Below the pieces are notes generated by a model that saw nothing but the letters and a program-made list of their open reading frames with translations, made no database searches and was not told the DNA's origin. The position numbers and the translations under genes are program-made. DNA of 64,000 nucleotides, taken from contig NZ_FWEX01000006.1 in assembly GCF_900170025.1 (NCBI RefSeq), positions 286,668 to 350,667 of the forward strand, read 5' to 3'. Below are positions 2,094-8,737 of this stretch, piece by piece. How positions within the stretch are numbered: the first letter of the stretch is position 1; each line of letters opens with the position of its first letter. This stretch comes from Nitrospira sp. ND1. Lineage in GTDB: Bacteria > Nitrospirota > Nitrospiria > Nitrospirales > Nitrospiraceae.

Positions 2094-2537
2094 CTAGTCG
2101 TCTTCGGGATTGATGATATGCAGCCCCGCCGGACGACAGGCCGCCAGGAGCTGCTTATCCGCACTCACGACCGTCAGCCGGAGCGGCTTGAGTTCCAACG
2201 CCAAGGCCAGGTGTAGCAACTGCGGCGAACGCAGAGCCGGATAGTCCAAAATCAACTCCTTCGCAGCCAGATAGGTCTCCATCGTCGGGGAGATAAATTG
2301 GAAAAGCCCCTGCGAAGCTTCCATCTCGAACTTGTACAGCACCGAATAACAGTCGTCCCTGGTGATTTCACCCTGCTGCGCGCGAACGGAGAGGGCCGAA
2401 TAAAAATCCGTGACGCTCCACATGGGCAGAATGGCGACCTTGCCCCGCTTCACCATGAGCTTGTTCACCACCCGCGTTCCGCGTTCCATGCTGTATCGCT
2501 TCACCAACGCCGTGGAGTCGAAATAGTAATACGGCAT
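2094..2537 (-). CDS. PIN-domain protein, VapC-like toxin
   Basis: At 147 residues this is typical for a PIN-domain ribonuclease. The N-terminal 'YYYFDSTALVKRY' is the classic PIN opening with Asp7; Asp44 and Asp127 (in 'VVSADKQLL') correspond to further metal-binding acids. The third acid of the family, normally in a 'LDALHLA' context, is Gln106 here ('PQLLHLA'), so activity may be reduced or altered. Family members cleave RNA, often tRNA, and are held inactive by a cognate antitoxin. The gene starts one base after the stop of the upstream small gene, as in toxin-antitoxin operons. It is a good structural call; the toxin role is inferred. Confidence 0.8.
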   Translation of the reverse strand: MPYYYFDSTALVKRYSMERGTRVVNKLMVKRGKVAILPMWSVTDFYSALSVRAQQGEITRDDCYSVLYKFEMEASQGLFQFISPTMETYLAAKELILDYPALRSPQLLHLALALELKPLRLTVVSADKQLLAACRPAGLHIINPEDD

Positions 2538-2538
2538 C

Positions 2539-2787
2539 CTACACCCTCCCCTTCAAGAGACTGTCAGCCAACGGCGACTGGAGCTTGGAGAGGCGATCCT
2601 GCAACTCATCCAATGGCAATTCCTCGTAGTAGCCCTGTTTGCGAAAAATGCTCACGATGTCGCTCTTCAGTACCTGCTGCGTATCTGCCGTCAGCCGTTC
2701 GCGCAACCGCTTCTTCATCGCCTGACTGGACAACCGGCGTCCACCGTTGCCTTGCTCACCCGACTTCCGGGTCCCTATTTTACTCAT
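2539..2787 (-). CDS. Small protein upstream of the PIN toxin, putative antitoxin
   Basis: This encodes 82 residues from the ATG at 2787, which has a good ribosome site (GGAG) just upstream; longer in-frame starts would overlap the lipoprotein gene. The N-terminal third is basic (KSG, RR, KKRLRERL), possibly for nucleic-acid contact, and the C-terminal part is amphipathic and acidic, as expected for a toxin-binding tail. I do not recognise the family. Its stop lies one base before the toxin ATG, so translation is probably coupled. The antitoxin role rests on this context only. Confidence 0.65.
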   Translation of the reverse strand: MSKIGTRKSGEQGNGGRRLSSQAMKKRLRERLTADTQQVLKSDIVSIFRKQGYYEELPLDELQDRLSKLQSPLADSLLKGRV

Positions 2788-2821
2788 CCCTGCTCCTCTC
2801 TCCTGTGGTTGACTCACCGAG

Positions 2822-3943
2822 TTAACGACTGACCGGCGGCTGCACCGCCTCTTTCGGACAACCGGACGGCGTCGAGGCCGACGCCGGCAGATCCATCTCT
2901 CCATACACATGCGCGGCCACGGATCGGGCCAGATCGGAGGCAAACTCCTGCTGCATGACACGGACCGCCTTAGCGGCTGCCTCGCGCTCCGTGACATGCC
3001 CTTCCTTCCCGCCTTTCGACAGGGCCCCGACCACACGATGGGTCGCGACCTCTTCGATCACGGACTCTGCGCACCAGCGGACATAGCGGAAGTGGGGATC
3101 GTTCACTTCGATCGGCCAGAGACGCACCGACCCGGTAATGAGTAATTCTGCAGGAACGGCACCGGCGCCGCGCCCCACCACCGTGAAGCCTTCCTGTGCG
3201 AGGCCGTCTACGAGCGCACGCTCAAGCGGCTCGGCTTGATCGCCAGACAGATCGACGGCCATGACGAGATTTTTGGCAAGAAACTGTTCCAATTCAGCAG
3301 TCAACTCCGCCACACGATACGTCGACGCATTGCCCTGACCGTTCGAGCGCAGGACGCGAAGATCGGTGTTATAGGCCTCGCGCAGCACCAGGTTCTTGGC
3401 GGCCCGTTTGAGATTACGCACGCGCGAGAGCTTGTCCTGGGTCTGATGCGCTTCGGTCACTTCGGTCTGAATCGTGCGATCGAGTTCATTGAGGCGTTCC
3501 ACCATCGCCGCTTCGGCTTGCGCCCGGTTCATGCCTGCCAGAGCATAGTACTGTCGCGTCTTTTGGTCAAACCAGGTATCCAGAACCTGCACATTTTCCA
3601 GCACCTTGTCGGTCGTCACACGGGTCACGTTGTCCAAGGTGAGGCGACGCTCCGTGCTCGTCTGCCCGCGGGACTCCACAACCAGGTACGATTCCCAGTC
3701 TTTCGCCTGCGCCGTGATCTCGGCCTTAAAAATTCTGGAGACGGCAGCATAGGCCTGCTCCGTTGCCTGCGGTCGCGAATCGGCCTGACCCACCCCGACG
3801 AGATACTGGGCTGACGGAAACTGGGGGCTTCCTCCGTCGATCCACGCAGGACGGGCAGTTCCGCCGAACCATCCGCAGCCGGCAAGCAACAGCAGCAATG
3901 CCGAGAGAACGGCCGCTCGCCCTCGCCCCGTGACCAGCTTCAT
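2822..3943 (-). CDS. LPP20-type lipoprotein
   Basis: This encodes 373 residues. The start at 3943 gives a signal peptide with lipobox 'LLAGCG', so the mature protein is a lipoprotein. After the lipobox comes 'PAWIDGG...YLVGVGQADSRPQATEQAYAAVSRIF', the pattern of LPP20 lipoproteins, then a long helical region and a C-terminal alpha/beta domain with 'LITGSVRLWP', which recalls CsgG/LpoB-like folds. The start overlaps the stop of the upstream gene by ATGA, implying coupled translation. It is the last gene of a run of four lipoproteins. A cell-envelope role linked to LpoB is likely but inferred. Confidence 0.75.
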   Translation of the reverse strand: MKLVTGRGRAAVLSALLLLLAGCGWFGGTARPAWIDGGSPQFPSAQYLVGVGQADSRPQATEQAYAAVSRIFKAEITAQAKDWESYLVVESRGQTSTERRLTLDNVTRVTTDKVLENVQVLDTWFDQKTRQYYALAGMNRAQAEAAMVERLNELDRTIQTEVTEAHQTQDKLSRVRNLKRAAKNLVLREAYNTDLRVLRSNGQGNASTYRVAELTAELEQFLAKNLVMAVDLSGDQAEPLERALVDGLAQEGFTVVGRGAGAVPAELLITGSVRLWPIEVNDPHFRYVRWCAESVIEEVATHRVVGALSKGGKEGHVTEREAAAKAVRVMQQEFASDLARSVAAHVYGEMDLPASASTPSGCPKEAVQPPVSR

Positions 3944-6914: not shown

Positions 6915-7085
6915 ATGGCTGATGTGCAGATTGAAGACGGCATCATTAAAGTGGTTCAACTCGATATCCAGGATCCCAAGGCCGCCGCCGTGTTGGCGGA
7001 ATACCCCCAGGTCCGCTGGCCGGAAATCACTCGCCGGGCGTTGAAGATTGGATTGGGGTATCTGAAAGGCGGAGGAAAAGACTAG
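6915..7085 (+). CDS. Small cytosolic protein, 56 residues, unknown function
   Basis: The ATG at 6915 has an AGGAG site at a good distance. The protein has a beta-like start ('IIKVVQLDIQD') and one helix ('WPEITRRALKIGLGYL'); this might suggest a ribbon-helix-helix or small adaptor, but I do not recognise it. Its TAG stop (7083-7085) is exactly the CTAG bordering the repeat element that follows, so the last residues (GGGKD) may have been changed by that insertion. It is divergent from the lipoprotein cluster. Confidence 0.55.
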   Translation: MADVQIEDGIIKVVQLDIQDPKAAAVLAEYPQVRWPEITRRALKIGLGYLKGGGKD

Positions 7086-7351: not shown

Positions 7352-8737
7352 CTAAGGCCCATGTTTCTCAGCTGGAGGAGCACTGCCTTGAACGGCGCGG
7401 ATCGCGCGTTCACTTTGTCCCCCCAGCTCCAGATATCGGCGGAAGGCGTCGACGGACTTTTGCGGTTCGTTCAAATGGTCGGCGTAGAGCTCGCCGAGCG
7501 AGAAATAGACATCCCCGTAGGCCGGGTTCACTACTAATGCCTGCTGCATGGCCTGCTCGGCTTCCTGGTACTGTCCCTTCTTTGTGAGGGCCAGTGCCAG
7601 GGAGTAGTGGGAATCGGGATTCTGCGGCGCATGTTGCACCGCCGCGCGGGCGGCGAGCAGCGACTCCTCCAGATTCGGCAGCACTTCCAAACGGATGTAA
7701 CTCTTTAATACGTAGGCATCGCCGAAGGACGGATCGTAGCCGATCGCGCGGTTGAGCCGTTCCAACGCCTCTTCGGCCGACTTTTGCTGCTGCAGCAATG
7801 CAAAGGCCTGTTCATACTGAGTGCGGGCCTCCCTCATCCGGTCCGCCTCACTCGTCGGTTCCTTTCCGGCCTGGAAGGCGCCTTTTCGTCCTTCAATCAG
7901 AATGACGTCCCCGTCGCCCTCCAACTGCACGAACTGCGGGTGCTGAGCCCCCTTCGTCGCGGCCTCCACGTCCTGCTTCACCTGCGCCGCGAGTTCACTG
8001 GCCATGACCCAGCCGTTCTTGTTGAGATCGGCAGCCCCGTTCAGCCCAGCGACCAATGCCGTTACAAAGGCGCTCTGGCCCGGAGCACGTCCGACCGCCT
8101 CCTCTTTCTCAGCCGCCGTGAGGACCTGGACGGCTCGTTTTTCCGTATCATCTTCGGGCGACAAACGGCCTTCGAGTGAAAGCGGCTGCGGCGCGGTCAC
8201 CTCCCACCCCCGGATGTTCGCGTCGAACAACATCAAGATGTGTTTGGAAGCGGACCGTCGGCTGAATTCTTTGAGTTGATCGAACGTGATGGCTTTAGCG
8301 GGATTGTTCAGCTGCGCATCCCAGGGAACCAGATAGCCCAGTTCTTTGGATTGAGAATCCTGAGTGCCCCCTGCATGCCCGGCAAAAAAGAACAGCACGC
8401 GATCCTGACGCCCTACTTTGCGGGGCAAATAGTCATTGAGAATCTGGAGCAGATGTTTGGAACTTGCCTCTTTATCCTGCAGCTCGATCACTTCATCGAA
8501 CCCGAGCCCCCGCAACGCCGCCGCCACCGCATGCGCACTCTCCAACGCGCCGGGCACTTTCGGTGCCACGAGATAGTTCTCGACACCGACCACGACCGCC
8601 CAGGACTTGTAATAGAGTCCTTCCGGCTTTCCAACCTGCGCGTGGGCAATGGAGAGAATTCCAACCGTTCCAGCAGCGCACATGGCCACCAGGCATACGA
8701 ACATCCGACGAAGATGGGGGAATGTAGACGAGCGCAT
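7352..8737 (-). CDS. Caspase-like (peptidase C14 fold) protein with TPR repeats, catalytic Cys missing
   Basis: This encodes 461 residues. An N-terminal signal (residues 1-34, ending 'AHAQ') indicates export. Residues 45-250 follow the caspase/metacaspase fold: 'SWAVVVGVENY', 'VLFFFAGHAGG' with the expected His121, and 'KHILMLFDANIRG', where Asn174 takes the place of the catalytic Cys ('DACxSG' in active members). Residues 300-450 are three or so TPR units ('GDAYVLKSYI', 'PDSHYSLALALTKKGQYQEAEQAM', 'GDVYFSLGELYADHL'). It is probably a non-proteolytic binding protein in the periplasm. The start at 8737 lacks a clear ribosome site; Met12 is an alternative. Confidence 0.75.
   Translation of the reverse strand: MRSSTFPHLRRMFVCLVAMCAAGTVGILSIAHAQVGKPEGLYYKSWAVVVGVENYLVAPKVPGALESAHAVAAALRGLGFDEVIELQDKEASSKHLLQILNDYLPRKVGRQDRVLFFFAGHAGGTQDSQSKELGYLVPWDAQLNNPAKAITFDQLKEFSRRSASKHILMLFDANIRGWEVTAPQPLSLEGRLSPEDDTEKRAVQVLTAAEKEEAVGRAPGQSAFVTALVAGLNGAADLNKNGWVMASELAAQVKQDVEAATKGAQHPQFVQLEGDGDVILIEGRKGAFQAGKEPTSEADRMREARTQYEQAFALLQQQKSAEEALERLNRAIGYDPSFGDAYVLKSYIRLEVLPNLEESLLAARAAVQHAPQNPDSHYSLALALTKKGQYQEAEQAMQQALVVNPAYGDVYFSLGELYADHLNEPQKSVDAFRRYLELGGQSERAIRAVQGSAPPAEKHGP

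Follow-up and report, generated by a model that had tools for sequence, protein, structure and literature searches.

The window, a 64,000-nucleotide stretch of the Nitrospira sp. ND1 genome, was analysed around a minus-strand gene encoding a caspase-like protein. The features of the locus were as follows:

7352..8737, minus strand: pseudo-orthocaspase gene encoding 461 aa with a predicted export signal, a caspase fold and TPRs
8737 and 7352-7354, minus strand: ATG start and stop codon of the 461-aa ORF
8636..8737, minus strand: predicted export signal, residues 1-34, with a hydropathy peak and a cleavage-like AHA-Q site
7925..8605, minus strand: Peptidase_C14 (caspase) domain, residues 45-271 (Pfam PF00656, E 2e-12, 47.7 bits against a cut-off of 21.4)
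8375..8377, minus strand: codon of His121, the retained histidine of the catalytic dyad
8216..8218, minus strand: codon of Asn174, at the position of the catalytic Cys
8135..8206, minus strand: loop that follows the dead site, residues 178-201, with clade-specific residues (W178, E189-G190-R191, E195, R201) conserved at 98% or more in 70 pseudo-orthocaspase rows and at 0-45% in 20 Cys-bearing rows
7412..7840, minus strand: TPR region, residues 300-442 (approximately), matching Pfam TPR families and helical repeats in the model
6915-7085 (approximately), plus strand: small ORF, conserved and 56 codons long, lying tail-to-tail with the caspase gene

In-frame alternatives to the start codon were present further upstream, as far as 8962. 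With the ATG at 8737, the alignment began in the same region for 27 of the 28 homologues from the genus, the 28th being truncated by a contig end. The N-terminus was the most hydrophobic stretch of the protein (a mean hydropathy of 2.31 in a 19-residue window from residue 13) and was followed by AHA-Q, which, from hydropathy and motif, is a plausible signal-peptidase site at the end of the first 34 residues. An AxA-Q/S site was found within the first 50 residues in 47 of 71 family proteins. The initial annotation had described a caspase-like protein followed by TPR units, and this architecture was confirmed by Pfam, the TPR profiles above cut-off including TPR_16 (44.9 bits) and TPR_11 (40.8 bits) among others.

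To model the structure, AlphaFold2 was supplied with 31 family sequences. The resulting model had a mean pLDDT of 83.1 and a pTM of 0.55, with the helical repeats of the TPRs mostly above 90 pLDDT; the caspase and TPR domains can thus be taken with confidence singly, but their mutual placement cannot. The caspase part (residues 40-284) matched MALT1 (8v4x_E) with a Z of 23.0 and an rmsd of 2.6 over 206 residues, aligning to its whole caspase domain, and Arabidopsis metacaspase 4 with a Z of 21.8. Across MALT1, metacaspase 4 and caspases the Z values were 20.7-23, which identifies a caspase fold. Sequence identity to MALT1 and metacaspase 4 was only 14-19%, and a search of PDB sequences with the family profile at E 0.01 gave no match. 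These best structural matches, the MALT1 paracaspase and the plant metacaspase, are active proteases, whereas the window protein, compared with active orthocaspases and metacaspases (MEROPS C14B), has the catalytic His and is missing the catalytic Cys.

The positions of the dyad were located with 20 Cys-bearing paralogues (L108-L127), high-scoring phylum matches outside the ortholog group that were chosen and do not constitute a census. In their alignment with the window protein, column 121 was His in 20/20 and column 174 was Cys in 20/20, making the assignment of the site unambiguous and bearing out the earlier reading of His121 as kept and of the Cys position as Asn174. The family set was then merged with the set from a scan of the GTDB genome collection to give 116 distinct domain cores. 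Residue 121 was His in every one of them. Residue 174 was Ala in 40, Pro in 31, Asn in 25, Gly in 17, Ser in 2 and Glu in 1, and was never Cys. A nearby cysteine that might serve the active site was also looked for and none was found: the only cysteines of the whole protein, C15 and C20, both lie inside the predicted signal, leaving the mature protein Cys-free, and 69 of 71 family proteins likewise had no Cys beyond residue 34. Since the mature protein is Cys-free and position 174 is never Cys in the 116 domains, the predicted inactivity as a cysteine protease is well supported by sequence. Whether close relatives share Asn174 received a divided answer. In the first set, Asn was present in 26 of 28 proteins of the window's genus (Ser in the other two), but in 0 of 43 outside it. 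As judged from this alignment, Asn is the state of one genus and not a designed replacement for Cys, because relatives carry Ala, Pro, Gly or Glu at the same position.

Fourteen columns showed no variation in the 20 Cys-bearing rows; of these, 174 was the most released in the pseudo-orthocaspase clade (rank 24 of 228 columns, at 2.16 bits). Y55, G120, H121, K165, G242 and Q265 were still invariant there, and R110, W178, E189, G190, R191, E195, R201 and W243 were nearly fixed and new to the clade. In the Cys-bearing rows the frequencies were 0% for R110, W178, E189 and W243, 5% for G190 and 20% for R191. R161 was a further clade-specific residue. Several of the new conserved residues lie in the stretch directly after the dead site, where caspases have their active-site loop. 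Such a pattern could mean that the site has been re-purposed, with His121 and the neighbouring clade-specific residues binding a ligand or metal or catalysing a thiol-free reaction. The invariance of His121 despite the loss of its Cys partner fits this explanation, as do W178, R110, R161 and E189-R191, and there is a precedent in the pseudoprotease MamO, described as having gained metal binding (PMC4794232). Position 174, however, can be Pro, Gly, Ala, Asn, Ser or Glu, which leaves no part for a side chain at that position, and His121 may be kept for packing; we regard a re-purposed site as doubtful. The acids at 67 and 172 presumably correspond to the basic-residue (S1) pocket of metacaspases. 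D172 was present in the window protein, with Ser at 67; position 67 was Ser or Gly in the window's genus, and across the family D67 was found in 77/116 and D172 in 86/116.

The Cys-bearing paralogues are putatively exported His-Cys orthocaspases of Nitrospirota and the nearest paralogues of the window protein, with which they have in common the fold, the GH motif and mostly a signal-like N-terminus. They differ in keeping the Cys and, where scanned, in their partner domains (PDZ, DUF4384, Sel1 and FGE-sulfatase). The initial annotation had called the periplasmic use of the fold uncommon. This did not hold, as most of the inspected paralogues, judged by eye, also had signal-like N-termini, in agreement with a 2012 survey, according to which many bacterial homologues of caspases have N-terminal membrane helices that might be signals (PMC3501461). 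The same survey lists TPR among the commonest partner domains of these proteins and puts the share of Nitrospirae caspase homologues with a complete dyad at only 57%.

Pseudo-forms of animal caspases are known to regulate active relatives. A comparable role here, as a regulator or decoy acting on active exported orthocaspases through shared substrates or dimerisation, would be in keeping with the several family genomes that contain His-Cys paralogues, most of them with signal-like N-termini. Two C14 domains passed the search in the window's own genome, that of the window protein and that of L148, but the latter, which keeps His-Cys, has an N-terminus that is not signal-like. With no exported active partner found in this genome, a decoy is unlikely here, and for the group as a whole we consider such a role improbable. 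Two more distant caspase-like proteins were also observed in this genome (L002:1420-3384 and L005:1390-3567), in which the dyad positions hold Arg/Ser and Gln/Thr in place of His and Cys; a Pfam scan of the L002 protein gave no match.

At a threshold of E 1e-20, the pseudo-orthocaspase was matched in 166 of 175 family genomes and in 21 of 22 genera. For five of the nine missing genomes (G011, G077, G111, G146 and G168), the LpoB gene lay so close to a contig end as to put the expected caspase gene beyond it, and in three others (G041, G044 and G126) the LpoB match was absent too. The remaining genome, G078, had a different sequence at the expected site of the gene, near a contig start. The ORF at that place (L238:1-543) contained a YADD stretch, which to us resembles reverse transcriptase and may reflect either a misassembly or an inserted group II intron. 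In the scan of the GTDB collection, the best 80 of 134 candidates were all from Nitrospira, Nitrospiraceae or Nitrospirota records. A search of the phylum at E 1e-15 matched 134 of 395 genomes; outside the family the best matches were at approximately E 1e-35, and those that were aligned carry Cys. One family genome (G076) had a tandem pair of pseudo-caspase genes (L061:244-1635 and 2377-3768).

In a quick maximum-likelihood tree, whose root is not established, a branch with an SH-aLRT of 99 set all 70 pseudo-orthocaspase rows apart; the program cautions that long branches come together at this point. As all 20 paralogues have Cys and the dead forms make up one clade, a single ancient loss is the simplest history, and the catalytic Cys was probably lost in one event. 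Of 351 pairs within the genus, 161 could be used for the caspase part, 142 for the TPRs and 244 for the signal, with median dN/dS values of 0.075, 0.046 and 0.51, respectively. In an alignment of 31 divergent members, the columns averaged 66% identity. The gene is neither a one-off nor decaying, and the constraint on it is strong. A degenerating protease gene lacking a present function might be proposed from the missing catalytic Cys and the variability of its position, but near-universal retention, intact frames, the low dN/dS of the caspase part and the column identity all stand against it. Contradicted by the selection measure, this proposal was rejected as hardly credible.

The surroundings of the gene were compared across the family and beyond. 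In all 22 family loci examined, the caspase gene had a divergent acs gene on one side and the small conserved ORF on the other, and in 21 of them the LPP20-LpoB lipoprotein genes came next after the small ORF, the remaining locus stopping at a contig end. A Pfam scan of the small ORF (6915-7085) gave no match; its relatives occupied the same place in 22/22 family loci and in 8 of the 12 caspase-less loci of other families. This fixed order could indicate that the protein belongs functionally to the LpoB/LPP20 outer-membrane lipoprotein locus and acts in peptidoglycan synthesis. Against this, the LpoB block was present and the caspase absent in 12 of 12 loci from other families (11 of the same order and one of the phylum), with acs still nearby in nine. 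Three genes occupying the caspase's place in these loci were scanned; two encoded DUF4301 proteins and one a nucleotidyl-transferase protein. Furthermore, the oppositely oriented small ORF lies between the caspase gene and the LpoB operon, and second caspase copies are located elsewhere. Most likely, the caspase gene entered an acs/LpoB block that already existed; because the block would be the older of the two, the gene's surroundings say little about what it does. The idea of a functional link with the LpoB locus was accordingly set aside despite the order being strongly kept within the family, and we give it little credence.

Second pseudo-copies were found in N. moscoviensis and in one other genome, G046, 48 and 21 bp downstream, respectively, of a multihaem cytochrome gene, each at the end of a same-strand run (L239:3189-9839 and L240:2357-9008). 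The run in N. moscoviensis encodes two multihaem cytochromes, a cupredoxin, a TPR protein and an ethylbenzene-dehydrogenase-type haem protein, and the run in G046 was equated with it by protein similarity. The multihaem cytochrome is itself core to the family (162 of 175 genomes). Among 30 cytochrome loci inspected, a caspase-like gene was within reach in two; none was seen in the fetched flanks of the other 28, several of which were shortened by contig ends. A tie to electron transfer was therefore kept as a lead only, the cytochrome being core but just 2 of the 30 loci having a caspase-like gene nearby.

Pseudo-orthocaspases were described by Klemencic et al. in 2019, mainly from Alphaproteobacteria and Cyanobacteria, in a paper whose main text does not contain the word Nitrospira (PMC6426788). 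As set out in that text, they are like the window protein in having a caspase p20-type domain devoid of the His-Cys dyad; some of them, the Phe-Ser forms, carry TPRs C-terminal to the domain, as here, and a His-Ala dyad is common in Rhizobiales. The published forms are tied to photosynthesis (PMC6426788), unlike the present gene, which is near-universal in Nitrospiraceae, always keeps the His, varies at the Cys position and encodes a Cys-free mature protein. SyOC of Synechocystis is likewise a caspase homologue from a prokaryote in which the dyad is substituted, and its deletion is reported to give higher oxidative-stress tolerance (PMC7889975). Among the entries listed in searches of open-licence literature on Nitrospira with caspase, on bacterial pseudoproteases and on LpoB/LPP20/COG3014, none was a study of the window protein, and the word caspase was absent from the main text of two Nitrospira papers.

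The explanation that we favour, and consider probable, is that the protein is a periplasmic pseudo-orthocaspase whose catalytic Cys was lost in an ancestor of the Nitrospiraceae and which has been retained in a non-catalytic role, as a binding or scaffold protein. What the sequences show is an export-like signal, a caspase fold, loss of the nucleophile, a single clade, strong purifying selection, an invariant His121 and clade-specific residues by the dead site. The predicted N-terminal signal would export the caspase-fold protein to the periplasm. There the 178-201 loop may have reshaped the former substrate groove, which would hold a peptide or protein uncut, and in most members the TPR superhelix could provide a second docking face, so that the protein would bridge envelope proteins. 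The initial annotation had also suggested a scaffold; this accords with the presence of TPRs, with purifying selection and with the conserved residues specific to the clade, while the partner and the binding itself are inferred.

Several observations count against parts of this mechanism. Matches of short length occurred in approximately 33 family genomes, and the six short forms that were inspected (297-308 aa; L064-L069) had no TPRs in the fetched locus and kept the signal and the caspase domain; the TPRs of a long-form control were detected. The caspase domain can thus persist without TPRs, and bridging through two faces cannot be how the protein works in general. An entirely intact peptide pocket is opposed by the Pro found at 174 in 31 of the 116 domains and by the partial loss of D67 and D172. 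The invariance of His121 exceeds what a plain scaffold would need, and may be structural. The second copies linked to cytochromes were confined to two genomes.

Nitrospiraceae are non-phototrophic. Pseudo-orthocaspases, some with TPRs, are already published and have so far been discussed mainly for phototrophic Cyanobacteria and Alphaproteobacteria and for cell death. The most interesting part of the present finding is a near-universal, strongly constrained gene in a non-phototrophic family. Tentatively, the dead caspase fold might be a core housekeeping periplasmic protein of the whole family, which comprises nitrite oxidisers and related Nitrospiraceae; His121 and the clade-specific loop would form a new ligand or partner site used when envelope or electron-transfer proteins are assembled, with no relation to cell death or photosynthesis. 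With the His invariant and the Cys position free, the family offers a clean natural test of the caspase fold without proteolysis, in organisms that are central to nitrification.
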